64,000 nucleotides of DNA from Romanomermis culicivorax. Its lineage: Eukaryota; Nematoda; Enoplea; Mermithida; Mermithidae. This document shows, in pieces, positions 4,839-49,484 of this stretch (position 1 is the stretch's first letter; every line of letters begins with the position of its first letter). Location of the stretch: the NCBI GenBank assembly GCA_963922205.1, contig CAWUHX010000037.1:930001-994000 (forward strand). The letters run 5' to 3'. The notes under the pieces are model-generated. The model was not told the origin of the DNA, searched no databases, and saw only the letters and a program-made list of their open reading frames with translations. The position numbers and the translations under genes are program-made.

Positions 4839-6498
4839 ATGAAAACGTTTTTCCTCATTCTCGTTCTAGCTCATTTATATTTGTTCTCAAATGTTCAACA
4901 GCAGAACGGCTGGCCACCCAATATGACAGCAGGCTTTTTGGTCTATACATGTAATTGGAAACTGCACGAATTAGTCGCTCAGATGGCCATCGTGGACTTG
5001 AAAGCCATCGGTGTTATGCCTAGTGATTTGAATTTCAAGTAAAAATAAATCGGTTTTAATCGTATTGAGCTGAGAAGCATGTTTTACATAATTGCAGTGG
5101 ATTTCATCCGTAGAAATTGTCTAGTCGAAAATTTTTTTCCAGATATTCTCTGAATTTGTAGGATAGTCCGATTAAATCATACTGACCAACCAGACTTTTC
5201 AAATGCTAAATTCTCATTAAAATTGCATATTGTCAATTTTTTGAGATTCTATTCGCGACAGTCTTGCGACGACGAATCCGCAATGAACACGTCTCTCGAT
5301 TTATACAAAAACTATCATGTCAACGTTTTCTTCGGCCCCGAATGTTTCGCTGGTATGAATAGCTTTTTCATATGTAAAATATCATTGCGGTCTCTCTCTC
5401 TAACCAAATTTTTCGATTTTATTTTCGTTTTCCAGATACTGATTACAAGCATACCTATAAGACCTCCGACCAGTTGGGGGGGGGGAGGGGGTCGAAAAAA
5501 GTCGGAATTTTTCCCAAAAAGGCCAAAACATACACTTTTTTGCAAATTTTTTTAACTTTTTCCAAACTGGGGGGGGGGGGGGTTGGGTGATGTTGGGTAC
5601 ATGGTTGGCCAAGTTGGGGAGGGATCCCCCCAACCCCCCCCCAAGTACAGGTATAATTACAAGAAAATTTATGTTTTAAGCTATCTCTATCACCGCCCTC
5701 CTGGCCGCCAATCTGGATTTGCCCACGTTTGGTTATTTGTCCGTTTCTAGCCAACTGGAAAACAAGAGGAAATATAAAACTCTGGTGCGCACAGCCAATT
5801 CTATGTCATATATGAGTCAAGCTATTCGCGAAGTTTTGCTCTACTTCAAGTGGCGCCGGATTGTCGTCATTCGCGTGCCGGGATCGACTTGCGACGTTTT
5901 GACAGACGCTTTTCCTACCACCTTCTCGGATACCAATGTCAACGTAGTCTCCACTTTGATGGTCAATTATAACGATACCAACAGTATGCAGAGCACTTTG
6001 GATCAATTGAAGTTGGAAGCCAGAAGTACGTATAAGATTTCTCACTTTCAAATCTTTATAATTCACTTTGTTCATGTTGTAAGTTCAAAAAACAGAAGTT
6101 CTGAAAGTTTATTCGGATTTTGGCTTAACACAATTATCGCTGCGTCTTTGTACACATTTCTTTTGAAGTTTCTGAAATTTCCGTTTGGATGGATAAATGA
6201 TTCGCTAACAGGTGATAAATAGAAAATATACGCCTCCTCCTACAAACATGATCGGGGATAACTTTTTGCCTATTTAATTCCTTCAGTTGCCCTTATTTGT
6301 GGTGGAACAACATCACCGGATTCAGCTCTCCCACTTTTGACTGCAGCCTACGAATATGGCATGAAATATCCCGATTACGTTTTTTTCGTCCCTGAATACA
6401 ATACATTGACGTCGGCCTCTTGGGAACCATGGTTACAACCATGGGTTAGCGCTTCTGACGCTTCCTACTTCCAAAAAGTCTATAAAAGCGTTTTCACG
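4839..6498 (+). other. Guanylyl cyclase exons 1-4: signal peptide and first half of ligand-binding domain
   Basis: Exon 1 encodes the leader and the start of the ectodomain. Exon 2 contains the CDD..A motif and VNVFFGPEC, matching the conserved 'vNvfiGP.C' of natriuretic-peptide-receptor-like ectodomains. Exon 3 carries the [12 protein letters not shown] segment and the region after it, where lysines and arginines precede the second lobe. Exon 4 has ALICGG and a WEPW segment. Intron 2 (5353-5680) carries an odd G/C-run insertion (5475-5642). Frames join without a stop, so the gene looks intact here. Confidence 0.85.
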
Positions 6499-27400: not shown

Positions 27401-30400
27401 TTCGAATTCCCTCTACATCTAATGTGCAAATTCAACATTCAAAGATGAAGTGTGGCTAGTTTCTTTGATGTTTAGGTGAAAACATTTCATCACAGATGAT
27501 GAGTCATAGTTTACTTTGTCACACTCCTCGATAAATGGCAGTGGCGGGTTCTGCACTCAAGACATATCAGGTACGCCTACAGATGTTAAATTTGTTAAAA
27601 AAGCGAAGTTCGAACAGAAAGTTTTGGTTTTGATCACCATCGGGCCGAATGGCTTGTCACAGCTTTCATTTGCAAATCTGGCTATGCCATCAATGCTTAA
27701 CATTATTTCAAGGAATGCATTAAGCGTAGGTTGATCCCTTACATCGCGCCAACTACACTGATGGTGAATATGTCTTTTGGCCAGATCAAGTGGGTGCACA
27801 TTATGCCAGAATCATTTTGGATGAATTGCGTGTCAAAAATGTGGAATCAGTGGAAAAGTCTTTAAACCCTGCCTGTGTTCCTGAAGTTCGAGCCATCAAA
27901 GATTTTTGGTCTTATCTGAAGTCTTTGGTCAACGCCCAAGGTTGGCAATCAAAAACTTTACAACTGATAACTCATATAAAGTTCTGTTTAAAGAAAGTTG
28001 ATAACAATATTGTACAGAAGTTGGCTGTGAGTACTCGCAAAAGGATTGATACTCTATGACGAAATGGAGCCATTAAAGCTTGTAATTAGCCCTATCTTGT
28101 AGAATTTTTATTGCTCTTTAACTTAATGTAATGATTGTCCAATAATAGAAATTGGCATTGTAAAAAACGACCTTTTATGGTAGTCCGGATTTTTACCGAA
28201 CGCCCGTATGCTTGATCAATTATTCTATGATTCTTGACGACTATGATCGAAACTTACAATAGACGTTCAGTTTATCTATACGTCAGCTTCAGTGGCATAT
28301 TCTCTAGAAGTTATATCGTTGCTGAAGACGTTGGATTTCAACGGTCGTCCTTTAAGACCCCTTCTAAAACAAGTTCAAGGTTTCGATTTGAAGTTCCTAA
28401 ACTTATTGGAAACGTGTTGGCGGGAAAATCCGAAGACTCGAATCAACGCGGCATTATTGAAAAAAGAAATTTTTGTTCAAACTCGGAAATAGTAATTCAT
28501 TTATACAGTTTGTAATACTAAAAGAGGAATAATTTCAGCTCACTTCTAGCGGTAAGAATCTTATCGATCACGTGATGAATATGTTGGAAAAATATGCTAC
28601 GAATTTGGAAAAAATTGTCGAAGAAAGGACAGAGCGGATGAACGAAGAACGTCGAAGAGCTGATAATTTGCTTTATCAAATTTTGCCCAAGTTTGGATAC
28701 ATGGATCGTATTGTTTTTCTGTTGCTCTAGAAAAACGGCAAAGTGGACTCGACCTTTCAGAAATAGCAGCATCAAAATCTAACTTATACCTTGTGGTGTT
28801 GTATAAAAATCGTGCTTCTACGATGAAGTAATCATTTTGCTCTCTAGGACGATAGCCGACGCCTTAAAAGTCGGCCGAACGATCGACCCAGAAATTTTTG
28901 AAACTTCCACTATCTATTTTTCTGATATCGTCGGATTTACGGCAATTTGTTCAAAAAGCCTGCCGACCGAAATTGTAGCCATGTTGAACAGTTTATATTC
29001 ACAGTTTGATGAAATTATTCTAGCATTCGACGCTTATAAAGTAGGCTGTCGAGGCTTTTAGCAAGAATATCGTTAATTACTGAGTGAGAAAATAAGATTG
29101 TAGTATGTTGCACTGCACTGTATTTAAAAATAATTTATGAAAACAAACAATTATTTATGCGAACATATGTATATCCTAGTGATTTGTAAGGCAAGTTGAA
29201 AACTTAATTTTTAAGAGTTGGCCATAAAACTTTCAAATGCAGATGATCCACGTAATGTAATAAATCCTCGTTTACGGACTTTTTTATTGTCAGGTGCTAT
29301 AAAGTGGAAAAATCCCTAATATGAATTTCGTTTATTGTCATATAAGACTTAATTTCTATAATGATATAGTTTTTGTCTCACTTTTAGGTTGAAACTATTG
29401 GCGACGCGTATCTCGTAGTTTCTGGCGTACCTGTGCGCAACGGCATGGAGCACGTGACGAATATCGCTGAAATGTCTCTCAATGTTTTAAAGGTTTGTGC
29501 AGAATATTTTATTTAGGCCGAAGAGAAGATCAGTTGAAACCAAAGTTGATTCCTTCGAATTTGCTTTTGGTCCGTGCAAGCACCATCTCGCTGTTTTATA
29601 CTATTGATCTGGCAAATTACTGGAGGGCTACAAAAACAGTTTGTCAGATGAGGAGACATGGGCTATGAGGATTAGAGAAATCATAGCCAAATCAATCGTG
29701 TTGAAACTGTATTGGTGTAGCAAATTATATCCTAGCAGTTTGTAACAGATTTAAAAATTGTATTTATTGATAAAATGGCGTAATCTTCGAAAAGTTCATC
29801 TTGCGTTTCGCAGTAAACTTATTGTCTTAGCTTAATTTTTAGGTTCTTAAACGGTACCGTGTACCCCATATGCCGTTTACACCTGTTAGCGTCAGAATCG
29901 GTTTGCACAGCGGCACAGTTGCTGGCGGAGTCGTGGGTGTCACTATGCCAAGATATTGCCTGTTCGGCGATGCTGTTAATTTTGCATCTAGAATGGAAAG
30001 TTCAGGTGAAGGTGCGTACATATTTCACTATAGTCTGTTTTTTATGAAATTCATCCAAATTGAAAAATGACAAAAGTGAATGTTGTCATTAAAGTACTTC
30101 CATCAGAGTTTCAACTGTGGGATTTTCACTACTTTAAAAAATTGTTATGGCTTCGTTGTGGTTGCTCGCCGATTTTCAGCCATATGTGACATGTAGCCTG
30201 GCGGTAAATCGTAAACATATGTTCTGTTTTCCAGTTTCATGAATTTTTCATTTTTTGCCGGAGATGTTTAGGCATCGGTGCCGTTGCTGATGCCTTATAC
30301 GGTTCTAGGATAATTCGCCCCCAGCAATTCTTCCCTCACAATTCGCCCCCGGTAATTCGCCCCCACTGCAGTTCGCCTCCGGACAATTCGCCCCCAGTAA

Positions 30401-32807
30401 TTAGCCCCTGGTATTGTACATACCTAGGTGATTTAAAAGCAACTACATGATATGTTATGTAATATATCTCCAGACATTTCCCCTATTAGGTAACCATATT
30501 TTATGTGAAGCATGAAGGAGATGAAAAGATGATTTTTCACTTCGCCCTGTCTCCTATGTTTTCCTTTTCACTCTTTTTTCACATTGTCTTTTTTCTTTTC
30601 TTTTCTGGTTGCATTCATATATTCTTTTGCCAGCTTCATTTCTTGTTACTTTTTATCGTGATCTATGGAGAGAAATTAAGATTATGACAAAGTATCACAA
30701 TTGTTCTACGTGCGACTCTATCGTGTTCTTCACTATCTTTTTTTGTGACAACTTTGCGGTGTACCAAAAACAAAAAAGAATAAAAATAGAAAAGCAGAAG
30801 AGAAATATAAAGGAAAAAAATCAGAAAAGAAGAATGAGTAAAAAGTAATCAAAAAAATATAGCAGAAGAAACTAAACAAGAAAGATGAAAGACAAAAAAG
30901 AGGAATACAAGAAAGAAAATTAAACGAAAAAGGAACATAAAACAAATGCAGATCGAAGAACATAAGTGACTCGCAATTCTGCTTATGAAATCCGTGTTAC
31001 ACATTAAAATTCTGCGTAAATTCTCCCGGGTATTCACGCCATCAGACTAAAATTTGGCATGGTTTCTGGGGATTAGGACACCATCATTACAAACCTGAAA
31101 AAATATGGATTTGTAAATTGCCAGTGTTGAGATTTTTCACACATTTTTGGTCGAAATTGATTATTTTCAGTAAGATAAACTCGAAGAGTTCGAAGCCACA
31201 CATTTTGTTTCAAGTGGAAAAACAACCGACCACTTCAATTTTAGGAAACTAGTGCTTAAACGCCTGTATTGCTGACTGTAAGAGTAAAAAAGACTTATAC
31301 TGACTTAGTACTAACCGCACCAGTAAAAAACCATATATTCAAAGAAAATGAAGAAAGATTATTTGTGGATCTTTATTTGGAACATTGCTGTAGACCTTTT
31401 TCTTCTTGTACATAATACTTGCACTCTGCATGCAGAATTCATAAATAAACATGCTATTTCGGCTAAGGAAAATCTCTAGGTTTAGTGCATTGATGAGTAC
31501 AAATGCTACTACATAACTGCTAACAACCTAGTGGAATTATTTTTACATCTGAATTTTTTAAATTAAAAAACAGTGAATTGGGGGCCAATTACTGAGGGCG
31601 AATTGCTCAGGGGCAAATTGTCCGGGGGCGAACTGCAGTGGAGGAAAATTACCAGGGGCGAATTGTGGGGAACGAATTGCTGGGGGCGAATTGTCCGTAT
31701 CCCGCCTTATACATATTGAATATGAGATGAGTCTGAAAAATTCCGAAAATTACTGGAGTGCTGAAGTATACAGAATTTGCAATTGATAATTATTCTGAAA
31801 ACTGACTAAAATGTCAGTCAGGGAAATCTAGTGGGTTATATAATGTTGAAAATTTAGCCATAATGCGGGAGTTCCCGAAGCGACACCACCGGAAATTTTT
31901 TAAAAAATGATATGGTTCTGGAAAATACATGAGTGGAAACTAAATCATCATCACGTCGAGCGAAATTATAGAATTCCTGAAAACCTGGCCCAAAATCTTG
32001 CATGTGCCCAACCGACTAGTGTCGCTTCTAATTAAACATGTATAAATTGTTTAAAAAATACATATAAAATAAAACGCGACCACGACGTCAACTTCTTCGC
32101 AACCAAAGTAAGGGTTAATACACTCCTAAGCTTTCCTATGTTACTGTATGCATGGATGTGGCCAACCTTGTTATCCTACTGCAAAATTTTTTTGATTTTT
32201 GGATCTCAGTATCCGGCTTAGCATTCTCCTTAGGCTTAGACTTAGGGAACGCCTGTGGATTGCAAGGCCAAGGTCGTAAGTTTCTGGTAGTAGGATAACC
32301 CGGTTGGGCCCATGGATGGTTAGCGCACTTTCAGCTAGATCAGCTTTTTGGACTGGGTCCAAAAAATCAAAATGGAGTTCCATTCCGCAGCTACTTTTCA
32401 ATTGTTCGTTGTGCCTCTAGAAAATTTCCGTTAGATGGCCGTCTGACTCCTGAAAAAATTCAATCGCATTTGTGAGATAGTACTCATTTTTACAGATTGA
32501 AATGCATAAATTTGAATAATAGACTTTAAATTAAGCTTTGTTCCAATAAGTAAATGTCTGATGAACGTTTACCTTTAAATTAGCAGTGAAGTTCTTCAAA
32601 TTATGTTCTTCAAGGGAACAAGATACACATGTCCGAAAGTATGTACACCAATTTATCGATTCATTCGAAATATGTTACGGAGAAGCGGGGCGAGATCGAA
32701 ATTAAGGCAAAAACGAAAACGTTTATATTTCGCTTTTGCAAATTTTCATTATTTTTTAGGGCAAAGGAAAATGCACGACGTATTGGTTGCTGGAGAAGAA
32801 AGAGTGA
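4839..32807 (+). CDS. Receptor-type (membrane) guanylyl cyclase, 21 exons, about 1062 aa
   Basis: Single-pass receptor that makes cGMP from GTP after ligand binding. Exons (all phases agree): 4839-5038, 5246-5352, 5681-6025, 6287-6498, 19426-19533, 23222-23357, 23633-23787, 23831-23945, 24259-24325, 24388-24475, 24712-24915, 25367-25546, 25807-25981, 26660-26803, 28287-28491, 28550-28690, 28848-29040, 29388-29492, 29843-30011, 32615-32706, 32760-32807. Total 3189 nt with stop, a normal length for this family. Order: signal peptide, ANF-receptor-like ectodomain, one TM, kinase-homology domain, dimerisation helix, class III cyclase domain. The start was chosen because the ATG at 4839 opens a hydrophobic leader ([16 protein letters not shown]). 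Least sure boundaries: the acceptor at 5245, the donor after 23787 and the acceptor at 28549, each chosen to keep the frame. The introns carry the mobile elements listed below. Confidence 0.9.
5475..5642. repeat. G/C-homopolymer-rich insertion in cyclase intron 2
   Basis: Runs of 8-12 G on the + strand (around 5476-5490 and 5570-5582) are followed by C runs near 5626-5642. The layout suggests a short element with G-rich and C-rich ends. The runs open a spurious proline-rich ORF on the minus strand. G runs of this kind can form quadruplexes; function unknown. Confidence 0.5.
7011..7261. repeat. Dispersed repeat copy (shared with 22722-22975)
   Basis: About 250 bp starting near 'agacatgcac.g.aagaattttccagg' and ending near 'tatgtgcatgt.tg' recurs at 22722-22975 with scattered differences and indels. 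It contains the shared blocks 'tgtttttcatacaa.atat' and 'cagggtctcaggta'. It has no coding frame of its own. The copy lies in the 12.9-kb cyclase intron; the rest of 6499-7010 shows nothing recognisable. Confidence 0.7.
7617..8174. repeat. Pair of ~200-bp diverged direct repeats
   Basis: Copy 1 (about 7617-7812) and copy 2 (about 7974-8174) both run from 'gtataacagtcattgttttct' through 'ttgctgataa.tgagattt' to 'ctttggag', roughly 360 bp apart. They are clearly diverged and in the same orientation. The DNA from 8175 to about 8640 shows nothing further that I can name. Confidence 0.65.
8790..8962 (+). repeat. LTR-like repeat, left copy
   Basis: Matches 12459-12631 almost base for base, from 'ctctct.gtgaggccccgc' to 'cctgcacaaca', with only a few differences by eye. 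It contains 'tttgttgttgtag'. The true 5' edge of the LTR is probably upstream and was not found because the right copy is truncated. Confidence 0.75.
9053..12466 (+). pseudogene. Gag polyprotein remnant, frameshifted and interrupted by a foldback-like element
   Basis: Open segments 9053-9403, 9702-10199, 10184-10650, 11372-11630, 11828-12076 and 12092-12466 lie in order in different frames. The segment after 10184 looks like a capsid domain: LTALEGEF.....[14 protein letters not shown], then AIINVFAP, then [19 protein letters not shown], a retrotransposon-gag pattern. The 11828-12076 segment is Arg/Gly-rich (RGRGGYRN), as in nucleic-acid-binding gag tails, and the last segment is Gln/Pro-rich. 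Deleting the inserted element at 10657-11362 with one 9-bp duplication rejoins the two flanks in one frame. No zinc knuckle was seen. Confidence 0.75.
10657..11362. mobile_element. Foldback-like element A with iterated inverted ends (706 bp)
   Basis: Left end: a tandem array of 'gacaattcgtcccc'-type units (about 10670-10815). Right end: the inverse array, 'ggggacgaattatc' (about 11283-11350). The core (10860-11280) is AT-rich 'aaattttaaattaaa' sequence with no gene. An exact 9-bp target duplication, GGGTACACA, flanks it (10648-10656 and 11363-11371). Termini are GGTTTTAGGA... and ...CCATATCCC, matching element C (30301-31703). A 9-bp duplication and GG/CC ends fit Mutator-like or Foldback elements; no transposase is present, so it is non-autonomous. 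Confidence 0.8.
12459..12631 (+). repeat. LTR-like repeat, right copy (5'-truncated)
   Basis: Right partner of 8790-8962. It follows directly on gag sequence, without pol and without a clear polypurine tract, so its 5' part (and pol) seems deleted. DNA from 12632 to 13900 after it holds no recognisable gene. Confidence 0.72.
13931..14004 (+). tRNA. tRNA-Thr (anticodon TGT), possibly degenerate
   Basis: A cloverleaf can be drawn: acceptor gctcggt/accaagc (6 of 7 pairs), D arm gcgc/gcgc, anticodon arm tctac-cttgtat-gcaga (one mismatch) with U33 and anticodon TGT, variable ggtc-type linker, and T arm gaggg-ttcaagc-tcctc. Length is 74 with the discriminator G. A T-rich stretch (TTATTTTT) right after it can serve as a Pol III terminator. 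It sits in the 12.9-kb cyclase intron, 46 bp before foldback-like element B. Two stem mismatches leave open a pseudogene. Confidence 0.7.
14051..15587. mobile_element. Foldback-like element B with iterated inverted ends (~1.54 kb)
   Basis: The left end carries at least seven copies of AACTTGGCGTCCGTCCT-type units (about 14058-14205). The right end has the inverse, 'aggacggacgccaagtt' (about 15450-15580). A 9-bp flanking duplication with one mismatch is visible: TATGACAAG (14042-14050) and TACGACAAG (15588-15596). The core (about 14210-15440) has no convincing ORF. The terminal sequence differs from elements A and C, so it is a separate family with the same plan. Confidence 0.7.
15597..17640. 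other. Intronic stretch without recognised gene; dispersed-repeat head near 17326
   Basis: About 2 kb of AT-rich intron with ORFs that match nothing I know. At 17326-17530 a segment begins 'cacatacatgtaattagggg', the same opening as the repeats at 20370 and 44117, and it is rich in C and G runs ('gaccccc', 'gggg'). Confidence 0.45.
17640..19045. repeat. Minisatellite of TTGGTTGATTGATTCCCTGG-like units, ~1.4 kb
   Basis: Degenerate tandem array built from ttggttgatt, attgattccctgg and similar modules, with irregular spacing. It makes a spurious Asn/Gln/Pro/Thr/Ser repeat ORF on the minus strand (18473-18673). It lies in the 12.9-kb cyclase intron, about 0.4 kb before exon 5. Confidence 0.85.
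19616..20044. mobile_element. Foldback-like element D with iterated GTTTGTAC ends (~430 bp)
   Basis: The left part (19620-19690) has repeated 'gtttgtac' and 'gtactggtacaaacg' modules after a T7 run. The right part (19965-20044) has the inverse arrangement, ending gtacaaaaaaacgg. An exact 8-bp duplication, GATGTCAT, flanks it (19608-19615 and 20045-20052). The core has no gene. It is the smallest of the four elements of this plan and lies in the intron between cyclase exons 5 and 6. Confidence 0.6.
20362..21240. repeat. Dispersed composite repeat, copy 1
   Basis: It opens with 'catacatgtaattgggtgg' and continues 'aatcgtcgaccatatggctagccattgggcga'-like sequence; after a private insert it has the block from 'gggacccccatacttttggtcggaaaaatactg' to 'gcgccataaatacattttt', then 'ggggctccgttacatgtatgg' at the end. 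The same modules recur at 22329-23045 and partly at 44117-44270. The ends TACATGTAA and TTACATGTA are inverse of each other, so it may be a MITE-like element. No gene of its own was recognised. Confidence 0.65.
22329..23045. repeat. Dispersed composite repeat, copy 2
   Basis: Starts 'ttacatgtcattggggtgag' and contains the 'catactttt ggtcggaaaaatactg' block (22487-22515) shared with copy 1. It then contains the 'agacatgcacggcaagaattttccagg' block (22722-22975) shared with 7011-7261, and ends 'ggggccccgttacgtgtatgg'. It seems to be a longer version of the family or a nested pair. It lies just before cyclase exon 6. Confidence 0.65.
26900..28206 (+). mobile_element. Tc1/mariner-superfamily transposon, full length but inactive
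   Basis: Terminal inverted repeats of about 25 bp are visible: gggtgtccggtaaaaatctgg at the left (from about 26902) and the inverse, ccggatttttaccgaacgccc, at the right (ending about 28204). Each is bordered by TA, the target used by this superfamily. Length is about 1.3 kb. It lies in the intron between cyclase exons 14 and 15. Confidence 0.85.
27058..28059 (+). pseudogene. mariner-like transposase, broken by stops and frameshifts
   Basis: The start (27058) gives an N-terminal helix-turn-helix region ([19 protein letters not shown]). Later pieces, in other frames, hold FITDDES (first catalytic Asp, about 27492, followed by an in-frame stop), [29 protein letters not shown] sequence with the second Asp (about 27775), and IKDFWSYLK at the position of the third acidic residue. 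Several stops and frame changes make it inactive. Confidence 0.8.
28550..32807 (+). other. Guanylyl cyclase exons 16-21: linker helix and catalytic domain
   Basis: Exon 16 gives the dimerisation helix ([18 protein letters not shown]). Exon 17 has [13 protein letters not shown] with the first metal-binding Asp. Exon 18 has [13 protein letters not shown], with the Glu that selects guanine and the second Asp. Exon 19 has [17 protein letters not shown], with the Cys of guanine recognition and the Asn/Arg of the transition-state site. Exon 20 has KIHMSES and RGEIEIK; exon 21 has [10 protein letters not shown], the usual C-terminus. All catalytic residues are present, so an active guanylyl (not adenylyl) cyclase is expected. 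The intron before exon 20 is 2.6 kb and carries a foldback-like element; the last intron is a 53-bp GC-AG intron. Confidence 0.92.
30301..31703. mobile_element. Foldback-like element C with iterated inverted ends (1403 bp)
   Basis: Left end: repeated 'aattcgcccccag' units (30310-30415). Right end: the inverse, 'gggggcgaattg' units (31575-31695). Flanked by an exact 9-bp duplication, GCCTTATAC (30292-30300 and 31704-31712). Starts GGTTCTAGGA and ends CCGTATCCC, nearly the same as element A, so A and C are one family. The core has no gene; ORFs in it are low-complexity (Phe-rich or Lys-rich). It lies in the intron between cyclase exons 19 and 20. Confidence 0.82.
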
Positions 32808-34113: not shown

Positions 34114-35012
34114 TGTAAGGTACCTGCTAAAGCAGTACTGTAAATATGTAGCATACTGTATGTAATAGACATTCATTAAATGTTAGTAATTTTCACATTT
34201 TATCGTCTCAAGGGTGTCTGGGATTCACACCCAAACATTCCTACAAAATTACGTGAAGTACTTTATTTTGATCCGTTCACACCCCGGTAGCCCAAATAAG
34301 ACACCCTAATTAATTTGCACAAACGGCAGCTGTTCCCCTAGAACCCACACTAAACTACACATTCCACAGCTACCGTAATCCCCAGTAAAAATCGTAAACA
34401 ACACCTGCACACAGTAAAATGCGTAGAAGCCCCGCCGTACAGTAGTCTCAAGTGTAACGGTAGCGGGGGCCCCACAAAACATGTGTATACAGAGAAACCG
34501 ATACAGGAAGCATGCACAGAAGCACAAAGGTGTGGCCAAGCCCACTGTAGAAAGCAAGCGAAGCACAGAAAGCATACAGTACCAGAAAAGCATTAGAGAG
34601 GCGTAATTAAGAAAGCATAAAAAGCGTAGCAGGAAACGACGATTGGCGGAAGAAGATGGACAGAAGCTCGACCTCCCGCGACGCCCAGGGAGTGGCCAAA
34701 ATCGCGGTATAAAAGCAGAAGCAAAGCGTGATTTAGTTAGTTGTTAGATTGTTGTAATCGTTTCGTTTTGATCCGCGGCCGTTCCCTTATTTGCAAGCAA
34801 CCGTCTTCGAAAGCAATTAAACCATGTCGTGTATTTTTATTTGCAAGCAAACGTCCCGTCCGAATTGTGTATTGTCGACGTTCAAGCGACCGTCGATCAC
34901 CGTTGTTTTATTGTAATCATACGCCCGTGCCCCCGTCCCGTTATTTGTCCCCGCCGTATCGACCGATTGGTTAGAAGTAAAGTACCTCACACAAATCTGG
35001 TTGTTATATATT
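34114..35012 (+). repeat. 5' LTR (~899 bp)
   Basis: Begins TGTAAGGTACCTGC. The first 781 bp (to 34894) match the 3' LTR with 13 differences counted by eye. The remaining ~118 bp are present only here. A TATA box (TATAAAA, 34708-34714) is in the expected place for the LTR promoter. The 3' edge is inferred from the TGG of the primer binding site at 35014 and is good to a few bases. An antisense ORF within it also occurs in the 3' LTR, simply because the LTR is duplicated. Confidence 0.85.
34708..34714 (+). promoter_or_regulatory. TATA box of the 5' LTR promoter
   Basis: TATAAAA follows a G/C-containing stretch in the LTR and is repeated at 43109-43115 in the 3' LTR. It should drive the genomic transcript; the start site would lie about 25-30 bp downstream. 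Confidence 0.6.
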
Positions 35013-35013
35013 T

Positions 35014-35031
35014 TGGTGACCGTACCATTAC
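35014..35031 (+). other. Primer binding site candidate
   Basis: TGGTGACCGTACCATTAC starts with the TGG that pairs with a tRNA CCA end, directly after the LTR. The priming tRNA was not identified. Confidence 0.5.
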
Positions 35032-35251
35032 GTTAACCAGTGGAACTCCCTGCCCCCAGTTAGGTGTACTCTTATCCAGGCATTTAGAAGCATTAGATAA
35101 TACAGTAGTAATCATTTCCTACAGTAAGACAGTATTCGTAGAAAGCAAACTGGAAATCTCCTCCAACGAGACATTAAGCGATACATTTAAATGAATACAG
35201 CGTGAAGCAAAAATTGAAGCATTTAAGCAGAAATCCCATCATAAACCAAGA

Positions 35252-38200
35252 ATGACCCACCAAACACAAGATCATTTAGGAGAAATAGTTAGAGAACAGA
35301 TAAACGATTTATTTTCAGAACATTTTCGTACCCTACGCACACAATTGAATCAGAATACAGTAAACCCTACCCTAGTAGACGATCTCAGAACAGCAAACAT
35401 TCGTAATAACATGGCAAATAGTTTTTACGGGAAGCCTACAGTATTCACGGGCGGCGTGACCCAACATTTTGGTGAATGGAACAAAAGATTAGAACAACAA
35501 TTCATGGCACTCCAAGGCATGAAAGATACAGACGTACAGTTAAAGTTGGCATGTTTAGAAATTCATTTAGGAGGAGCCGCATTAGCAAAATTCAAAAGTT
35601 TAGCAAATTCCGAAAACCCTCCCCACACATACGAGCAGTATAAAGTCGCATTACAGGCATTTTTCCCAAACAATAGAGATAATGAGCTACATCAACAATT
35701 CTTACGCGAAAGAAAACAAAAGCGTTCAGAAACAGTAACAGAATCCTTATTTGATCTAAAACATCTCGCAACCCTCGCCTACCCTAACTTTAACACAGAC
35801 GCACGAGAAATGATCATAAAACCCCTCTTTGTAGAAGGCATGCAAAACGAAATCAGGGAAGCAATTAAGTATAGAAGGTTCGCAACTCTAAAAGAAATGT
35901 CAGACAAAGCAGCTTACATTGAACAGCAAATTCTTAGAAATGAGTTAAAGTCCAACGCCCTTCCCTTCATACCCCCAAAACCCGAACCCATCTTTTCCCT
36001 AACCAAAAACACAGACCAACAGGATCTTTTGCATCAGTTAGAACAACAAGTAAAAGATTTACAGTTGCAAATCAAACAAAAACCCCAACCCCCACAACAG
36101 AGTAGCTACAACAATTTCAGTAACAATACTTTCAGCAGGAATAATGCTTACAGGAACAATACCACCCCCAGGCAACCCACATGCTTCCAGTGTGGACAAA
36201 TCGGACACGTAGCTCGTAATTGTAAATCAGTAGGCACCCGAAAATCATGTGAAATCTGTTTCCATAATAATCACAGTACACGTGATTGTAAAAGCCGATG
36301 CATCCACTGCTCCCAAACAGGACATAGATCAGATAACTGCCTTTCAAAACCCTACTCCAATTTTCAATGTTTTATATGCAAGCAGAGAGGTCATACAAGC
36401 AGGTATTGCCCAAATCAGCAGAGTCGTAATATTCAAAATTGCATTGAGTACAGGCAACCCCAACCCCTCATGGACATTGATGACCCCGCATTTTACTCAA
36501 AATTACCCGCCATAACTAACGGCCCTCAGACTACTTTAGGAACTATCATGCCCAACACCCACCGCCGTAGTGACGAATACATCCTTGATCTGAACGTACC
36601 CGATTGGTGCGCCATGTCACCACCCCCCACGCCTGAAGCCGCAAAAATCGAAAAATCGCCGCCCACCATCCCCGTAGGCTACAAGATCCCCCGAAAGCAA
36701 GACACAACGCCGCCCACCGCCCCCGAAACCCCGTCAAAAACAGGCCGCAACTTGTTATCCCTTCTCCATGGCCTGACCCCTGAACCCTACCAATTCTGCC
36801 CCCGCCAAACATTGCTACTGACCCCCATAAGTAAGCAAGTCCAAACCCCATCCCATAACTCAACTTCTAAAGTTTTACAGAATGTTCAGATTGCAAACCG
36901 GCCACCCCCCCAGCTCAAAATTGCAAAACGACAACACCAAAAGCCCCAACACCAAACCGGCCACAACGAAAACATACAGTGCCCCGCCGCCTCCACTAAA
37001 ACATTCTATTGGCCGATGTTTTGTATTTTTCTTTGTATAATAATCCCCACATCGTGTAGTGCCCAATTTCAGATGTGTGGAACTTCATTGAGCGGTCACT
37101 CAGTCAGCATACCGAAACTTGTATCATGCACGCCCCCTTCCACAGTAGACAAACCCGTACAGACACTCGGAAAAATCTATATCCCCTCCACTAAGCCCCA
37201 CATTACAGACGCATACAAATGCAGTGTTCGCAAACGCAAAATTTGTACTAATACAGAATTTTTTGGATCAAAAGGTATTGTCTTTGACCAAACCGAAATG
37301 CAAAATCTAACCCCACATGTTTGTAAGGCAGTTGTTATAGACAAAGAGCACAACGGTCAAAAATTATATGAAACCCAACCAGGATTTTGGTCAACAAATA
37401 ACTCCCTAAGCATAGAATACACATGGTGTTGTACAGACCATTGTACCTCGGTCACTAACGTCATCATAGAAATAGGACAAATAGCATCTTGGAATGGAAA
37501 ATCTATGACAGGTACATTAGGCGACCTAGGGTCATGCAAACCGACATCAGGTCATTGTGTTACAGCCGATGGATCCATTATCTGGAATGAAACAGCATTT
37601 GGAAACTTATGCCCCTTCGAATACAAAAACACACATCCCATCAAACTCACACAAACCCACATGATAATAGAAGAACTACAAGGTGCATTCTCCGTTAAAA
37701 ATACAGTTTTTTCGAACCCCAATTGCCCAGAAATCCAAGACAGCATTCTAACCGAACAAGGCATTATCGTACAATTAGACAAAAGCACACCACATCGTAA
37801 CGCATTTTTAACCCCAAAAACCAACGAAACTCATACTACATTATACGATTTTGATGATTTTGAACCCATAAATGCAAAACTAAACTATCTAGCAGACAAA
37901 ATACAGGAATTCGAAATTCAAAATTTCAAAAATGTATGGAATGAATTATGCAGACAGGCACAGGGTCACCTTGATCTCGTATGGCAAATTTTACGTCTTG
38001 ATGCAACCCTTGGAGCGCGTGCATTCCTACAGCGAACGGACATCATAGCAGAATTCACAGGAGAAGCCCTCACAGTCTGGCCCTGCAAGCAGGTAAACGC
38101 ATCCAAAGTCTTTTACAACCATAAAATCAACCAAACATGCTACAAACTTTTGCCCATTCTCGTAGGAACTGAACTCATGTTTTCAAATCCAGGAGGCAAC

Positions 38201-39853
38201 GATTTGACCCCTTTTTCACAAACCGTTGACTGCCATCACATGCATGTAGCCCTTTACAAACAGAATAATACATGGGTCAGTGAAACAGGATCCCCGCATG
38301 TCACAAACTTACCTTTAGAAATCGTCTGGAACCAAAATTTCTCCCTTTTTCATTTTAATACACCCGCAATTTTTCATGATCAACTTGCAACTATTTCAAC
38401 CAACTTACTGTTTTTGAAACAATACATTTACAAAACTCACACACTCGAAAACATTGTCAAAAAACTCGTCAATTACACCGCCCAAATGTCTCTCAATTCC
38501 GATACAGTTTACAACATGATCTCAGGCACTGGCCAAGCACTCGGAAATACACTCTCTGGCGCCGGTCAAGGCATAGAACATGTAATAACGGGTACCACCC
38601 AAAGTCTCACGGACGGATTAAACAATTTACTCAAAGGACCCCTGCAAATCATTATCAATCTCGCCGTTATTACTGTAGTTATTGCAGGCGTCTTTTATTC
38701 GTTTCTCGTTCTTCGAAAATATTTCCCCTCTCCAAAGCGTCATGCCACAAATGAACATGCATACGAAATACCATCAAACAACAGACATTTACATGAGACT
38801 ATTCCCCCATCATTCGGCCATGCTCTCTTAGAATTAGCTAATCGTCGTGGGGCACAAACACAGCAGAAATACGTCCTTGTTGATATTGATAACCCCCGAA
38901 CTCCTGCAATCGAACTCATTAATCAAATTCACCAATCTGCATCAAATAAGCCACCCCAAAACATACCTGAGAAACATACCCCTCATATTCCAATCACACT
39001 TAACCGCAAATTAATGACAAAAGGCATGATTGACACTGGTGCAGTTTACTCACTCATTGATTCCCGAATCGCTCAAATCCTACAGCTAGACATGAAACCC
39101 CCGCTAGTCCAAGCAAAAGCAGCAAATAATCTTCCGATTCACTTTGTAGGGACCACTTTTGTCACAGTGACAGCCCAAACAATCCAGGAAACAATCATGG
39201 TCCATGTCCAAAAAGATTGCACAGCAGACATCCTTCTAGGCAAAAACTTTCTCAGTCGATTTTCGGAATACACTATCAACAATCAAAAATCACAGGTCAA
39301 ATTTGGCAATGTTATACTACCTTGTGATGGCCTAGAATATAGCCCTCTTTCAACTCGTGGTGGAACTTATTTGGATGAGAAATTAGAATTACCACCCCGT
39401 ACAGTAACCGAATTTACTGTCCCCTTGCCCAAATCGTACCTACAAGTTAAACAGCTTGAATTCACCCCAAAACCCAAACAGAATCCCAAAATCCATTTCG
39501 CAGCTTGTATCTCTGAAAACCAAAACAGTCGCATACGCATATCCATCCTAAACACACAAGAAACAGCTCAAATTCTTTATCCTGGAACATGCATTGGTAC
39601 AGTCTCATGTTACATCCCAAAACAAAATGCTCCCGCTAATCTAACCCCTTCAATGCAAAACCAGCCCAACCGTTTTGATACATTCACATGGTTAAAAGAA
39701 AATGTCAATTTAACCTCCAGTGACCTCACAGAAACCGAGAAAATGCAACTCCTACGCGCCCTATCGAAGTATCCCACATTATATGCTAAATCCAAAATGG
39801 ATGTAGGTAGAACCACCCTCGTTTCACATACAATTGACACCAATGGCTCCTAA
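35252..39853 (+). CDS. Gag - envelope-like glycoprotein - aspartic protease polyprotein (1533 aa to first stop)
   Basis: One open frame. Residues about 1-300: Gag matrix/capsid region (FTGGVTQHFGEWNKRLEQQF, then LQAFFPNN, a retrotransposon-gag pattern), then a Gln-rich helix. About 310-385: four CCHC zinc knuckles (CFQCGQIGHVARNC and three more). About 395-580: Pro-rich linker. About 584-606: hydrophobic leader ending in SCSAQ. About 607-1130: Cys-rich ectodomain with many N-x-S/T sites. About 1130-1155: membrane span. About 1258: protease active site MIDTGA, followed by ILLGKNFL. The frame stops at TAA 39851, but the same frame continues into RT. An envelope placed before protease is not the usual order. 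The glycoprotein family is not certain. Confidence 0.88.
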   Translation: MTHQTQDHLGEIVREQINDLFSEHFRTLRTQLNQNTVNPTLVDDLRTANIRNNMANSFYGKPTVFTGGVTQHFGEWNKRLEQQFMALQGMKDTDVQLKLACLEIHLGGAALAKFKSLANSENPPHTYEQYKVALQAFFPNNRDNELHQQFLRERKQKRSETVTESLFDLKHLATLAYPNFNTDAREMIIKPLFVEGMQNEIREAIKYRRFATLKEMSDKAAYIEQQILRNELKSNALPFIPPKPEPIFSLTKNTDQQDLLHQLEQQVKDLQLQIKQKPQPPQQSSYNNFSNNTFSRNNAYRNNTTPRQPTCFQCGQIGHVARNCKSVGTRKSCEICFHNNHSTRDCKSRCIHCSQTGHRSDNCLSKPYSNFQCFICKQRGHTSRYCPNQQSRNIQNCIEYRQPQPLMDIDDPAFYSKLPAITNGPQTTLGTIMPNTHRRSDEYILDLNVPDWCAMSPPPTPEAAKIEKSPPTIPVGYKIPRKQDTTPPTAPETPSKTGRNLLSLLHGLTPEPYQFCPRQTLLLTPISKQVQTPSHNSTSKVLQNVQIANRPPPQLKIAKRQHQKPQHQTGHNENIQCPAASTKTFYWPMFCIFLCIIIPTSCSAQFQMCGTSLSGHSVSIPKLVSCTPPSTVDKPVQTLGKIYIPSTKPHITDAYKCSVRKRKICTNTEFFGSKGIVFDQTEMQNLTPHVCKAVVIDKEHNGQKLYETQPGFWSTNNSLSIEYTWCCTDHCTSVTNVIIEIGQIASWNGKSMTGTLGDLGSCKPTSGHCVTADGSIIWNETAFGNLCPFEYKNTHPIKLTQTHMIIEELQGAFSVKNTVFSNPNCPEIQDSILTEQGIIVQLDKSTPHRNAFLTPKTNETHTTLYDFDDFEPINAKLNYLADKIQEFEIQNFKNVWNELCRQAQGHLDLVWQILRLDATLGARAFLQRTDIIAEFTGEALTVWPCKQVNASKVFYNHKINQTCYKLLPILVGTELMFSNPGGNDLTPFSQTVDCHHMHVALYKQNNTWVSETGSPHVTNLPLEIVWNQNFSLFHFNTPAIFHDQLATISTNLLFLKQYIYKTHTLENIVKKLVNYTAQMSLNSDTVYNMISGTGQALGNTLSGAGQGIEHVITGTTQSLTDGLNNLLKGPLQIIINLAVITVVIAGVFYSFLVLRKYFPSPKRHATNEHAYEIPSNNRHLHETIPPSFGHALLELANRRGAQTQQKYVLVDIDNPRTPAIELINQIHQSASNKPPQNIPEKHTPHIPITLNRKLMTKGMIDTGAVYSLIDSRIAQILQLDMKPPLVQAKAANNLPIHFVGTTFVTVTAQTIQETIMVHVQKDCTADILLGKNFLSRFSEYTINNQKSQVKFGNVILPCDGLEYSPLSTRGGTYLDEKLELPPRTVTEFTVPLPKSYLQVKQLEFTPKPKQNPKIHFAACISENQNSRIRISILNTQETAQILYPGTCIGTVSCYIPKQNAPANLTPSMQNQPNRFDTFTWLKENVNLTSSDLTETEKMQLLRALSKYPTLYAKSKMDVGRTTLVSHTIDTNGS
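37004..38750 (+). other. Envelope-like glycoprotein segment inside the Gag-Pro frame
   Basis: A hydrophobic leader (FCIFLCIIIPTSC), about 520 residues with many cysteines in pairs (CCTDHC, GSCKPTSGHC) and sequons (NLT, NNS, NET, NAS, NQT, NNT, NFS, NYT), then a Gly-rich stretch (SGTGQALGNTLSGAGQG) and one strong span (IINLAVITVVIAGVFYSFLVL) followed by a basic, proline-containing tail. This is the topology of a type I viral glycoprotein. The Cys spacing recalls class III (rhabdovirus/chuvirus-like) glycoproteins that retroelements are known to capture, but that is an impression, not an alignment. Confidence 0.72.
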
Positions 39854-42483
39854 CCCATACGTAGACAACTTTATTGGACTTCCCCAAAAGAAAAGCAAAT
39901 CATACAAGCAGAAGTTGAGCAACTCGCAGCAGCAGGTGTCATCAGCCAAAGCAATTCTCCATGGTGTACCAACACAGTTTTAGTTCCCAAAAAAGATGGA
40001 GGCCATCGTTTATGCATTGATTTTAGAGGCCTCAACAAAGTCACCAAAAAAGATACCTACCCCTTACCCCGTATAGACGAAATTTTAGACACCCTACGTG
40101 GAATGAAATATTTTACGTCCCTTGACCAATCCAATGCATATTATTCCATTCCCATAGCACAAGCAGACAGAGAAAAAACGACCTTTAATTGCTCAGCCGG
40201 CCAGTATCAATTCAACTACCTCCCCTTTGGACTCACCAATGCCCCAGCCACATTCCAAAGGTTAATGGATGTTATCCTCTCGGGTCTGCAATGGAACACA
40301 TGCCTTGTGTATCTCGACGATGTTTTGGTATTCGCAGACTCCCATGCCCAAATGCTGGAGCGTTTAGACACTATTCTTGCCCGATTCTCACAAGCAGGCC
40401 TTAAGCTAAACATACAAAAATGCAAATTCTGCCAGCCCCAAGTCCAATACTTAGGCCACGTCATTTCTCAGCAAGGCATTTCACCAGATCCCCATAAGGT
40501 ACAGGCGATCTATGACATACCCACACCCAAAAACTCAAAAGAAGTTAAGTCATTCCTTGGCCTACCCTCATATTATCACAGATTCATCCCAAATTGCTCT
40601 CAAGTTTCTAGCCCACTCACATCGCTACTCAAAAAGAACTCAGAATTTTCCTGGGGCCCCGAACAGCAAAACGCATTCACTAAGCTCAAAGAATTACTCA
40701 TCCATGCCCCAATACTACAGCATCCCGATTTCACAAAACCGTTTATTCTGCAAACTGATGCCTCAAAACTCGGAATCGGCGCCATTCTCAGTCAACTTGA
40801 TAGTAAAGGTCAGGATCGCCCCATTGCTTTTGGGAGCCGCACACTAAAACCCGCAGAACGCAACTATCTGATCACTGAGTTGGAAACCCTTGCAGTAGTC
40901 GAATTTGTCAAGTATTTCCGCCCCTATCTTTTCTAGCAACATGTTATTGTACACACTGACCACACAGCAGTTCAAGCAGTCTTACAAAAGGAAAACCCGT
41001 CCCCTCGCATTGCCCGTTGGGGATTAGCCCTCTCCGGAATTCAGCTAGACATTCGCCCTAAGAAAGGCACTGCTAACCGCAATGCAGATGCAGTTTCTCG
41101 ATTCCCCTCACAGACAGCAAAGCAATCCTTTGATATTGAGCAATTAGAAACCCACCCCGAAATATCAACTATCAATTCAGTTTTGGAAGCCGAAGCAACT
41201 GAACAAGAAGAGCAACAGAAAAATTTTGCTGAACTCCAACGCACTGACCCAACTGTCAAAAGTATTTTAGCAAAAATCGCCCAAAAACACCCCCTTACCC
41301 TTATCAAATTCGCAGTGCATCAAAACATTCTCTTCCGTATAGTCGACAAACAGGCAAAACTATACATTCCCAAGTCGCAAGTCCAGCATCTAATCGCCTC
41401 ACATCATGACAGCAAGTTCACAGGCCATTTTGCGGCCCGGAAAACTTTACACTTGCTCAGACAGAAATATTTTTGGCCCCAAATGAGCCGTGATATCAAA
41501 CATTACTGCAAAACTTGCCACCCATGCCAGACACAGAAAGCTCTTAGGCACAAAGTACATGCACACTTGGTACCAATTCAGCCGACTGGTCCCTTTGATC
41601 GAGTTGGTGTTGATTGCATGGGACCATTACCCCTCACTGAAGACGGCAACCGATTCATTGTCGTTTTCATCGATTATTTCACAAAGTATGTAGAGGCATT
41701 CCCGACCCCTGACATCACTGCAGCCACTATTGCCAAGCTATTCGTAACCAAAATTGTTTGCCATCATGGGTCCCCGAAAATCATCCATTGCGATCGTGGC
41801 ACCGATTTCGTATCCGACCTCTTCTCACGGATCACCAGTTTATGCAATACTCAGAAAATTCATTTTACCCCATACCATCCTATTGCCAATGGAGAAGTTG
41901 AGCGTTGCAACCAAACCCTAGCCACCTGTATCCGCATGTACATCAATTCAAATCACACTGATTGGGATACTTATCTGCCCTATGCCCTTTTTCGATCAAC
42001 ATCCATAAAAATGATAGCACATCATATCCCCCATTTGAATTACTCCACGGTAGACAAGCTAATCTGCCGTCAGACGCAGCCTTAAACTTTTTGCCCACGT
42101 CCTACATGGTTGATTTAGATGATTACGCCCTTCGTGTCAAATCGCATTTCACAGAAGCACTCTCAACCGTGCAGAAAAGTTTGCAAAAAGCCCAAGCCCA
42201 CTACACCCGTCAGTATAACAAGCATGCTCAGAGCATACATTACAAGGCAGGTGATCTTATTCTCTACAAAAATCATTCGTGTAAACAAGGGCTGACTCCC
42301 AAATTCCTCCCTCACCAAAACGGTCCCTATACAGTTACAAATTTCATGTACCCCAATGTTACACTCAAACACCCCCATAAGAACATTACATTTACGGTGC
42401 ATGTAAATGAGACAACCCCTTTCTACCCTCGGAAAGCAGCTAACGAATCTACCCCCACCCCTCCTCAACCTCGAAAGCCTTGA
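39854..42483 (+). pseudogene. Pol: reverse transcriptase, RNase H, integrase (one stop and one frameshift)
   Basis: Same frame as the upstream ORF. RT: VPKKDGGHRLCIDFRGLN, LPFGLTNAPATFQ and the catalytic YLDDVLVF (about 40308). RNase H: ILQTDASKLGIGAIL, then a TAG at 40934, then VHTDHTAVQAVL. Integrase: HHCC zinc finger (HHDSKFTGH...CKTCHPC, about 41400-41530), catalytic Asp in VGVDCMGPLP, Asp in HCDRGTDFVS, Glu in NGEVERCNQTL. Near 42000 a one-base shift moves the rest into the next frame (41962-42483), which holds HGRQANLP and a GPY-type C-terminal module (QNGPYTVTNF). Stop at 42481. All catalytic residues remain, so decay is recent. Confidence 0.9.
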
Positions 42484-42500
42484 ATGAGGACGTTCAACTC

Positions 42501-42514
42501 CGGAAGGAGGGAAA
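42501..42514 (+). other. Polypurine tract
   Basis: cggaaggagggaaa lies immediately before the 3' LTR (TGTAACG at 42515). This is the expected plus-strand primer of an LTR element. Confidence 0.75.
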
Positions 42515-43295
42515 TGTAACGTACCTGCTAAAGCAGTACTGTAAATATGTAGCATACTGTATGTAATAGACATTTATTAAATGTTAGTAATTTTCACATT
42601 TTATCGTCTCAAGGGTGTCTGGGATTCACACCCAAACATTCCTACAAAATTACGTGAAGTACTTTATTTTGATCCGTTCACACCCCGGTAGCCCAATTAA
42701 GATGCCCTAATTAATTTGCACAAACGGCAGCTGTTCCCCTAGAACCCACACTAAACTACACATTCCACAGCTACCGTAATCCCCAGTAAAAATCGTAAAC
42801 AACACCTGCACACAGTAAAATGCGTAGAAGCCCCGCCGTACAGTAGTCTCAAGTGTAACGGTAGCGGCGGCCCCACAAAACATGTGTATACAGAGAAACT
42901 GATACAGGAAGCATGCACAGAAGCACAAAGGTGTGGCCAAGCCCACCGTAGAAAGCAAGCGAAGCACAGAAAGCATACAGTACCAGAAAAGCATTAGAGA
43001 GGCGTAATTAAGAAAGCATAAAAAGCGTAGCAGGAAACGACGATTGGCGGAAGAAGATGGACAGAAGCTCGACCTCCCGCGACGCCCAGGGAGTGGCCAA
43101 AATCGCCGTATAAAAGCAGAAGCAAAGTGTGATTTAGTTAGTTGTTAGATTGTTGTAATCGTTTCGTTTTGATCCGCGGCCGTTCCCTTATTTGCAAGCA
43201 ACCGTCTTCGAAAGCAATTAAACCATGTCGTGTATTTTTATTTGCAAGCAAACGCGCCGTCCGAATTGTGTATTGTTGACGTTCAAGCGACCGTC
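42515..43295 (+). repeat. 3' LTR, truncated at its 3' end
   Basis: Matches 34114-34894 over 781 bp with about 13 substitutions (about 98.3% by eye) and no length change. After 43295 it gives way to 'atatatatactaaaaaaagc'. The last ~118 bp seen in the 5' LTR are missing. TATA box at 43109-43115. Confidence 0.88.
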
Positions 43296-47380: not shown

Positions 47381-49484
47381 AATGAATGAATAAATGAATA
47401 AATGAATGAATGAATGAATGAATGAATGAATGAATGAATGAATGAATGAATGAATGAATGAATGAATGAATGAATGAATGAATGAATGAATGAATGAATG
47501 AATGAATGAATGAATGAATGAATGAATGAATGAATGAATGAATGAATGAATGAATGAATGAATGAATGAATGAATGAATGAATGAATGAATGAATGAATG
47601 AATGAATGAATGAATGAATGAATGAATGAATGAATGAATGAATGAATGAATGAATGAATGAATGAATGAATGAATGAATGAATGAATGAATGAATGAATG
47701 AATGAATGAATGAATGAATGAATGAATGAATGAATGAATGAATGAATGAATGAATGAATGAATGAATGAATGAATGAATGAATGAATGAATGAATGAATG
47801 AATGAATGAATGAATGAATGAATGAATGAATGAATGAATGAATGAATGAATGAATGAATGAATGAATGAATGAATGAATGAATGAATGAATGAATGAATG
47901 AATGAATGAATGAATGAATGAATGAATGAATGAATGAATGAATGAATGAATGAATGAATGAATGAATGAATGAATGAATGAATGAATGAATGAATGAATG
48001 AATGAATGAATGAATGAATGAATGAATGAATGAATGAATGAATGAATGAATGAATGAATGAATGAATGAATGAATGAATGAATGAATGAATGAATGAATG
48101 AATGAATGAATGAATGAATGAATGAATGAATGAATGAATGAATGAATGAATGAATGAATGAATGAATGAATGAATGAATGAATGAATGAATGAATGAATG
48201 AATGAATGAATGAATGAATGAATGAATGAATGAATGAATGAATGAATGAATGAATGAATGAATGAATGAATGAATGAATGAATGAATGAATGAATGAATG
48301 AATGAATGAATGAATGAATGAATGAATGAATGAATGAATGAATGAATGAATGAATGAATGAATGAATGAATGAATGAATGAATGAATGAATGAATGAATG
48401 AATGAATGAATGAATGAATGAATGAATGAATGAATGAATGAATGAATGAATGAATGAATGAATGAATGAATGAATGAATGAATGAATGAATGAATGAATG
48501 AATGAATGAATGAATGAATGAATGAATGAATGAATGAATGAATGAATGAATGAATGAATGAATGAATGAATGAATGAATGAATGAATGAATGAATGAATG
48601 AATGAATGAATGAATGAATGAATGAATGAATGAATGAATGAATGAATGAATGAATGAATGAATGAATGAATGAATGAATGAATGAATGAATGAATGAATG
48701 AATGAATGAATGAATGAATGAATGAATGAATGAATGAATGAATGAATGAATGAATGAATGAATGAATGAATGAATGAATGAATGAATGAATGAATGAATG
48801 AATGAATGAATGAATGAATGAATGAATGAATGAATGAATGAATGAATGAATGAATGAATGAATGAATGAATGAATGAATGAATGAATGAATGAATGAATG
48901 AATGAATGAATGAATGAATGAATGAATGAATGAATGAATGAATGAATGAATGAATGAATGAATGAATGAATGAATGAATGAATGAATGAATGAATGAATG
49001 AATGAATGAATGAATGAATGAATGAATGAATGAATGAATGAATGAATGAATGAATGAATGAATGAATGAATGAATGAATGAATGAATGAATGAATGAATG
49101 AATGAATGAATGAATGAATGAATGAATGAATGAATGAATGAATGAATGAATGAATGAATGAATGAATGAATGAATGAATGAATGAATGAATGAATGAATG
49201 AATGAATGAATGAATGAATGAATGAATGAATGAATGAATGAATGAATGAATGAATGAATGAATGAATGAATGAATGAATGAATGAATGAATGAATGAATG
49301 AATGAATGAATGAATGAATGAATGAATGAATGAATGAATGAATGAATGAATGAATGAATGAATGAATGAATGAATGAATGAATGAATGAATGAATGAATG
49401 AATGAATGAATGAATGAATGAATGAATGAATGAATGAATGAATGAATGAATGAATGAATGAATGAATGAATGAATGAATGAATT
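47381..49484. repeat. (TGAA)n microsatellite, ~2.1 kb, nearly perfect
   Basis: After a short edge with 'aataaatgaataaatg' variants, the tetranucleotide TGAA repeats without a visible change for over 500 units and ends in 'gaattagatg'. On the minus strand it makes a 735-residue Phe-Ile-His-Ser ORF, which I read as an artefact of a 4-bp repeat without stop codons. Confidence 0.98.

Follow-up and report, generated by a model that had tools for sequence, protein, structure and literature searches.

Can the envelope glycoprotein of a retrotransposon be encoded between Gag and protease, in the same frame as both, and if so, how would it be made? The question is raised by a 64,000-nucleotide stretch of the genome of the mermithid nematode Romanomermis culicivorax (contig CAWUHX010000037.1, positions 930,001 to 994,000; hereafter the window). 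A long terminal repeat (LTR) element of Ty3/gypsy type spans positions 34114-43295 of its plus strand and encodes Gag, an envelope-type glycoprotein (Env), protease (PR), reverse transcriptase (RT), RNase H, and integrase (IN), in this order and in one frame.

A glycoprotein within the Gag-Pol frame

The open reading frame (ORF) at 35195-39853 (+) comprises 1552 codons without a stop, with its first ATG at 35252. After Gag and a linker rich in Pro, it contains a hydrophobic leader followed by an ectodomain rich in Cys, then a membrane span and a protease with a DTGA motif. The same frame continues through RT and the start of RNase H (39854-40936), and through the end of RNase H and IN (40937-42085). 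An earlier reading of the window (the original prediction) had listed these parts, from the CCHC knuckles to IN, and we find each of them, in the order described. Its further claim that the frame does not change until a late indel stands in part: the late frame change is present, and two in-frame stops, at 39851-39853 and 40934-40936, had gone unreported. With both stops in pol and a frame-shifted IN tail, the window copy is broken.

We observe that the segment between Gag and protease matches PF24664 (Pfam Monjiviricetes_fusion), with E 8.1e-18, and with E 1.6e-18 when the env piece is searched, at 66.5 bits against a curated cut-off of 27. Within the profile, the matched part is the central one (positions 296-463 of 653). 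The family is found in all four rows of the env alignment, as well as in the public proteins P0112 and P0115. Sixteen Cys are in register among the five proteins that cover the ectodomain, and the eight C-terminal Cys are in register in all seven rows. Herpesvirus gB profiles match the same central stretch weakly in three of four rows (best E 0.0064, not significant alone), and matches to gB chain sequences are also weak, the best having E 0.004 (a chain named ORF8) in a list where an unrelated ribosomal protein reaches E 0.02. The profile evidence supports a viral-type glycoprotein that appears to be of class III and Monjiviricetes-like (chuvirus/gB-like). The family returned is one of viral fusion proteins, and we reject a host identity for this segment on the basis of the PF24664 match. 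Sequons show a modest enrichment in the ectodomain (0.7-1.7 per 100 amino acids [aa] versus 0.5-1.0 outside) that we do not use as evidence. Scans of viral contigs and genome contigs recovered no relative.

The layout is general to a many-copy lineage

We scored copies in the host assembly (359 Mb, 595 contigs), namely the best 75 of 4214 env candidates, 113 of 8599 RT candidates, and 40 of 2504 LTR candidates; these lists hold the best-scoring copies and are biased toward intact ones. None of the 75 env copies has an internal stop. An open frame of 2400 aa or more surrounds 45 of them, and 63 of the 113 scored RT copies reach the same threshold. A separate genome search with PF24664 gave 68 scored matches, 8 of them with a stop inside. 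For 47 env copies out of 75, that of the window among them, a scored RT is found within 8 kb, and it is downstream of env in every one of these joined copies. The spacing between the two is 2853 bases in 46 copies and 2850 in one, always a multiple of 3, and env and RT report an identical open-frame length in 43 of the 47. For the 28 env copies without a partner in the scored RT list, that list, which ends at its 113 entries, says nothing on layout.

Upstream pieces were read for 20 copies, being the best-scoring RT copies after the window's own, chosen irrespective of frame length. Gag, env, and PR follow one another on one strand in 19 of them; judged by spacing, 17 of these 19 have gag and env in a common frame, and 16 have env and PR in one. 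The stretch from env to RT is free of stops in 14 pieces, has one stop in 2, and has many stops from a frame shift in 3. In the 20th piece (L023) the gag probe is absent, and before env the gag-linker segment is reduced to its last 292 bases; at 3612 aa, the open frame reported for this copy, from the same genome, exceeds those of the other copies. No copy read has env downstream of pol.

Ten further loci were picked by eye from the 68 PF24664 matches for differing open-frame length and profile coverage. They form several groups, with env 40-62% identical to that of the window, and six of them are near-identical to one another. Env lies before RT in all ten, and CCHC knuckles are found upstream in the env frame in eight. 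One stop-free frame runs from the start of env to the end of RT in six loci; in the other four, frame shifts or stops interrupt env or RT. Between env and RT, a strict protease motif was seen in only three of the ten, where no profile search for protease was made.

Public proteins display the same order. The env search recovered three proteins, and an RT search (120 of 2082 matches listed, 8000 candidates scored) added P0112 and P0115. An env profile finds env in 7 of the 127 proteins examined, four of which were used in building the profile. Env precedes protease in all five public proteins holding both, and gag precedes env in three of the five, namely those that reach gag (P0005, P0007, and P0112), with gag-env-pol in one frame. 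P0008, also from R. culicivorax, has an env 53-54% identical to that of the window and 75-78% identical to that of the six-locus subfamily. A further RT relative, P0111, has no ectodomain: its Gag-protease interval (residues 500-600) is an open frame in which about 44 residues part a leader-like segment from a second hydrophobic one. Two of these proteins show features of their own. P0112 has three tandem retropepsin-like domains after the glycoprotein (residues ~1340-1900), the middle one without a D-T/S-G motif, and P0007 has a Cys/His-rich stretch between its nucleocapsid knuckle and leader (residues ~470-545) that is not seen in the window copy.

We confirm that the Gag-Env-Pol order is general to the lineage and present in many copies. 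The in-frame position of the glycoprotein between Gag and protease, as first proposed, recurs in genomic copies and public proteins, the diverged loci keep env before RT, and an artefact or a single rearranged copy is rejected, since genome copies and public proteins share the order.

Relationships of the element

The Pfam matches in the window pol follow the order gag-asp_proteas, RVT_1, RT_RNaseH_2, RT_RNaseH, Integrase_H2C2, and rve. In a tree of RT sequences (31 rows chosen from 121 RT matches), the window groups with P0005, P0006, P0112, P0115, and P0111 in a clade with support of 100/100, which sits within a set of 26 rows (100/100) where some elements are named K02A2.6-like. P0111 is nested among the env bearers (92/87), and its absence of an ectodomain therefore looks like loss. 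P0007 is on a long branch, and an approximately unbiased (AU) test neither rejects nor shows its joining the six-member clade (p 0.167). The env tree pairs the window with the Romanomermis protein P0008 (95/93), and P0005 with P0006 (98/97).

The element has the PR-RT-RNase H-IN order, RT grouping, LTRs, polypurine tract, and CCHC-bearing Gag of the Metaviridae. Judged by its domains, it is a Ty3/gypsy element carrying a Monjiviricetes-type glycoprotein; the placement is at the level of Ty3/gypsy, the tree containing no named Ty3 reference clades. Errantiviruses have the gene order gag-pol-env, and this layout does not fit the element: in the window env is upstream of both PR and RT, and in each of the 47 joined copies it is upstream of RT. 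Assignment to BEL/Pao (Anakin/Belpaoviridae) is rejected, the Pfam matches being of Ty3 type with no BEL-specific family at E up to 1. Membership in Troyka is likewise rejected: those elements have a single Gag-Pol, no env, and LTR ends CG..CG (PMC12440569, excerpt), whereas the window element has env and an LTR that starts with TGTAA. Of the two origins first offered, a new lineage or a domain capture, what stands is an in-frame capture general to a many-copy lineage; this lineage is a relative of Ty3/gypsy, and a new superfamily is not shown. The layout is probably a new variant within Ty3/gypsy, and the expression strategy is probably new too.

Env is under purifying selection

Between copies, env has pN (nonsynonymous) of 0.0080 and pS (synonymous) of 0.103, a ratio of 0.077, in 16 sequences, these being the stop-free, alignable ones among the window and the 20 fetched copies; the ratio is 0.06 in a set of 7 sequences. 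The values were computed for env, the pairs are not independent, and the restriction to stop-free copies lowers the ratio somewhat. Even so, the surplus of synonymous change shows that the coding capacity of env was maintained during recent rounds of copying. Env is thus under purifying selection, and with pN/pS of 0.06-0.08 we reject the view that it is a decayed passenger.

Predicted membrane topology and expression

A hydrophobic leader precedes the ectodomain in all four proteins that reach that far (window, P0005, P0007, and P0112), the basic N-terminal side being clear in P0007 and P0112 only. In the window polyprotein the leader corresponds to residues 608-622 and the membrane span to residues 1152-1170. 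A single span follows the ectodomain in six of six proteins, with a charge of +2 to +5 on the cytosolic side and -1 to +1 on the lumenal side (net +3 and 0 in the window). With a leader before the ectodomain and one span after it, Env would be a type I membrane protein within the polyprotein, and since the flank after the span is the more positive one in all six, the tail and Pro-Pol are predicted to be cytosolic, with Gag. The predicted internal leader and stop-transfer span, with a positive-inside bias, are the features expected of a membrane-threaded product. The original prediction had expected one polyprotein to send the downstream enzymes across or to a membrane, unless a splice or cleavage step separates them. 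The enzymes need not cross it: a leader and stop-transfer span would leave Pol cytosolic and held at the membrane. In the cytosolic tail (window ~38.75-38.9 kb) we also note a loosely shared stretch, FGHALLELANRR, which recurs after the span in P0005, P0006, P0112, and P0115 and is possibly a Gag- or protease-recognition site.

In the structural polyproteins of flaviviruses and alphaviruses, a cytosolic capsid is followed by an internal signal, a lumenal glycoprotein, a span, and then cytosolic proteins. We propose the same topological plan for the window element, with no kinship, these being RNA viruses without reverse transcription. Translation of the genomic RNA would begin at the Gag AUG, with Gag emerging in the cytosol; the leader after Gag would then act as an internal signal peptide, threading the ectodomain into the lumen of the endoplasmic reticulum, where signal peptidase may cut Gag from Env. 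The single span would halt transfer and thereby keep the tail and protease-Pol on the side of the cytosol, and the protease of the element may release Pol from the tail of Env. In this manner, Gag, Env, and Pol would be co-localized at one membrane, allowing enveloped budding and cell-to-cell or host-to-host spread.

On the evidence of frame and order, selection on env, topology, and the conserved ectodomain, we favor, with some confidence, the reading that Gag, Env, PR, and Pol, encoded in one frame, are made as such a flavivirus-like, membrane-threaded polyprotein. That the whole lineage, spanning diverged subfamilies and several hosts or samples, expresses one such Gag-Env-Pol polyprotein without a separate env message has about even chances. 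P0111 fits the threading model in that its ectodomain is gone and both hydrophobic segments and the open frame are kept. Several observations weigh against the polyprotein. An equimolar output of Gag, Env, and Pol would be out of the ordinary, although elements with Gag-Pol in a single ORF are known (PMC12440569, excerpt). P0005 has two hydrophobic stretches before the ectodomain, the first without a basic flank, and the AlphaFold2 model of env (seven sequences) has a mean predicted local distance difference test (pLDDT) score of 49.6, too poor to confirm the fold. Furthermore, acceptor-like sequences lie shortly upstream of the leader, at 36873-36880 (TTTTACAG, ~135 nucleotides before the leader Met at 37016) and at ~36906-36913.

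These acceptor-like sequences agree with an alternative that we regard as a tentative one, in which env, perhaps with Pro-Pol, is translated from a shorter message made by cis-splicing before the leader or by spliced-leader trans-splicing, the single frame being a by-product of compact capture. A Met stands at or beside the leader in the window, P0005, and P0112; the host is nematode-like, as the trans-splicing form would have it; and insect errantiviruses, which are env-bearing Ty3 elements, make Env from spliced RNA (PMC12992720, excerpt). However, the leader of P0007 is not directly preceded by a Met, and the window copy lacks a strong donor ahead of env. Scored with a donor matrix (maximum 9.65 bits), the best window donor upstream of env is exceptionally weak, 200 of 200 dinucleotide shuffles being equal or better. 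This weakness was not confirmed in 19 other copies: in the 1.74 kb upstream, with the 5' untranslated region outside this scope, their best donors score 1.66-3.42 bits, at about shuffle level and thus near chance. Donor depletion is therefore not used as evidence for the polyprotein mechanism; a strong donor is absent from these copies too, the best reaching 3.42 bits. A separate env message needs no shared gag-env-pol frame, yet the frame is shared in copies of diverged subfamilies.

An unlikely possibility is that splicing removes env, making Gag-Pol the usual product and Gag-Env-Pol the product of unspliced RNA. P0111, an open Gag-Pol frame without ectodomain, resembles such a product, but it keeps the leader-like segment, the ~44 residues, and the second hydrophobic segment, which is not a clean exon joint, and the window has no strong donor between Gag and the leader. 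That the locus is a rearranged or misassembled copy, or a passive viral gene insertion without function in the element, is very improbable: the window copy is itself broken in pol, but the env copies scored number 75, the RT spacing is the same in 46 of 47, pN/pS is 0.08, and gag comes ahead of env in three public proteins. The membrane-threaded polyprotein remains the reading that we prefer.

Features of the window

The features of the element are collected in Table 1. Its Gag has four CCHC knuckles at residues 330-405 and a weak Retrotrans_gag match (Pfam, E 0.0038, below cut-off). The LTRs begin with TGTAA, each has a TATA-like box, and the pair is identical at 768 of 781 bases (98%). The 3' LTR lacks its 3' end, and because of this truncation the 3' end of the 5' LTR is approximate, and with it the expected position of the primer-binding site.

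Table 1. Parts of the Ty3/gypsy-type element, in window positions
Feature	Position	Strand	Evidence
5' LTR, TATA-like box at 34708	34114..35018 (3' end approximate)	+	98% match to 42515-43295
Gag: capsid-like region, four CCHC knuckles (~36182-36409), Pro-rich linker	35252..36990	+	zf-CCHC above cut-off
Internal hydrophobic leader, putative signal peptide core	37016..37060	+	hydropathy 2.19 over 15 aa
Env ectodomain, probable class III Monjiviricetes-like fusion glycoprotein, 16 conserved Cys	37064..38632	+	PF24664, Cys columns
Transmembrane span, then putative cytosolic tail of ~100 aa up to protease motif	38648..38704	+	hydropathy 2.4
Retropepsin-like protease	38990..39259	+	PF13975 E 7.8e-07
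In-frame stop codon, window copy	39851..39853	+	
RT and first part of RNase H, closing at second in-frame stop (40934-40936)	39854..40936	+	RVT_1 5.9e-39, RT_RNaseH_2 2.2e-36
RNase H end and integrase (H2C2, rve)	40937..42085	+	Pfam; rve slightly below cut-off
Integrase C-terminal part, shifted frame	41962..42483	+	no significant Pfam match of its own
Polypurine tract, 13 bases, adjoining 3' LTR	42502..42514	+	
3' LTR, truncated at 3' end	42515..43295	+	LTR pair match

Elsewhere in the window, an (AATG)n microsatellite of ~526 copies (47381-49483) is open in three minus-strand frames. Three pairs of short tandem arrays are found at 10668-10820 and 11283-11349, at 14056-14207 and 15514-15580, and at 30312-30408 and 31581-31693; by eye, the units of a pair, ~0.5-1.3 kb apart, look reverse-complementary, an arrangement like that of non-autonomous elements whose ends are rich in repeats. 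The end of a weak gag-like ORF coincides with one pair (ORF at 10172-10861, Retrotrans_gag E 0.0031, below cut-off). Pieces of host genes are also present: the ORFs at 518-871 and 5680-6222 have matches to calpain protease and to ANF_receptor, a ligand-binding domain of receptors. A PHROGs search of three other ORFs gave no match.

Comparison with known elements and significance

The literature compared here is represented by excerpts, and statements on it apply to these. One close analogue is Anakin, a mosquito BEL/Pao element which, like the window element, is an LTR retroelement with a captured chuvirus-type (Jingchuvirales) glycoprotein inside its LTRs, whereas its Pol is BEL/Pao and that of the window is Ty3; other BEL env genes are placed downstream of the polyprotein, and the excerpt describes no env between Gag and protease in one frame (PMC7642597). 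Errantiviruses and other envelope-carrying Ty3/gypsy elements share with the window element a Ty3/gypsy backbone with env (PMC12992720, PMC13172572, and PMC12859917), and type III fusion glycoproteins are mentioned for mosquito gypsy elements (PMC13172572). A survey of arthropods reports no clear evidence of capture of a Monjiviricetes-type glycoprotein by Gypsy or Copia (PMC10084718). Cer1 of Caenorhabditis elegans (PMC10309623) and TelKA of rotifers (PMC5408684) are, like the window element, retrovirus-like LTR elements found in small invertebrates and carrying an additional ORF, but this ORF follows pol, unlike the env described here; that of Cer1 encodes CERV, a nuclear protein needed for RNA export (PMC10309623), and that of TelKA a paramyxovirus F-like env (PMC5408684). 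In the env-bearing Ty3 and BEL elements compared, env comes after pol, and the spliced env RNA of insect errantiviruses sets the production of Env apart from that of Gag-Pol. The literature searched, with the main gypsy-envelope survey (Chary and Hayashi, eLife 108449) outside it, holds no report of env between gag and pol.

The family described here, with its many copies, purifying selection on env, and a glycoprotein placed within the Gag-Pol frame, shows that the env-after-pol layout is not a rule, and it documents a Monjiviricetes-type glycoprotein inside a Ty3/gypsy element. It also makes testable the question of whether one translation product of a retroelement can deliver Gag, a fusion glycoprotein, and Pol to the same membrane, and how their amounts would then be balanced. 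If true, the membrane-threaded polyprotein would constitute a third route to an enveloped retrotransposon, beside spliced env and separate ORFs.

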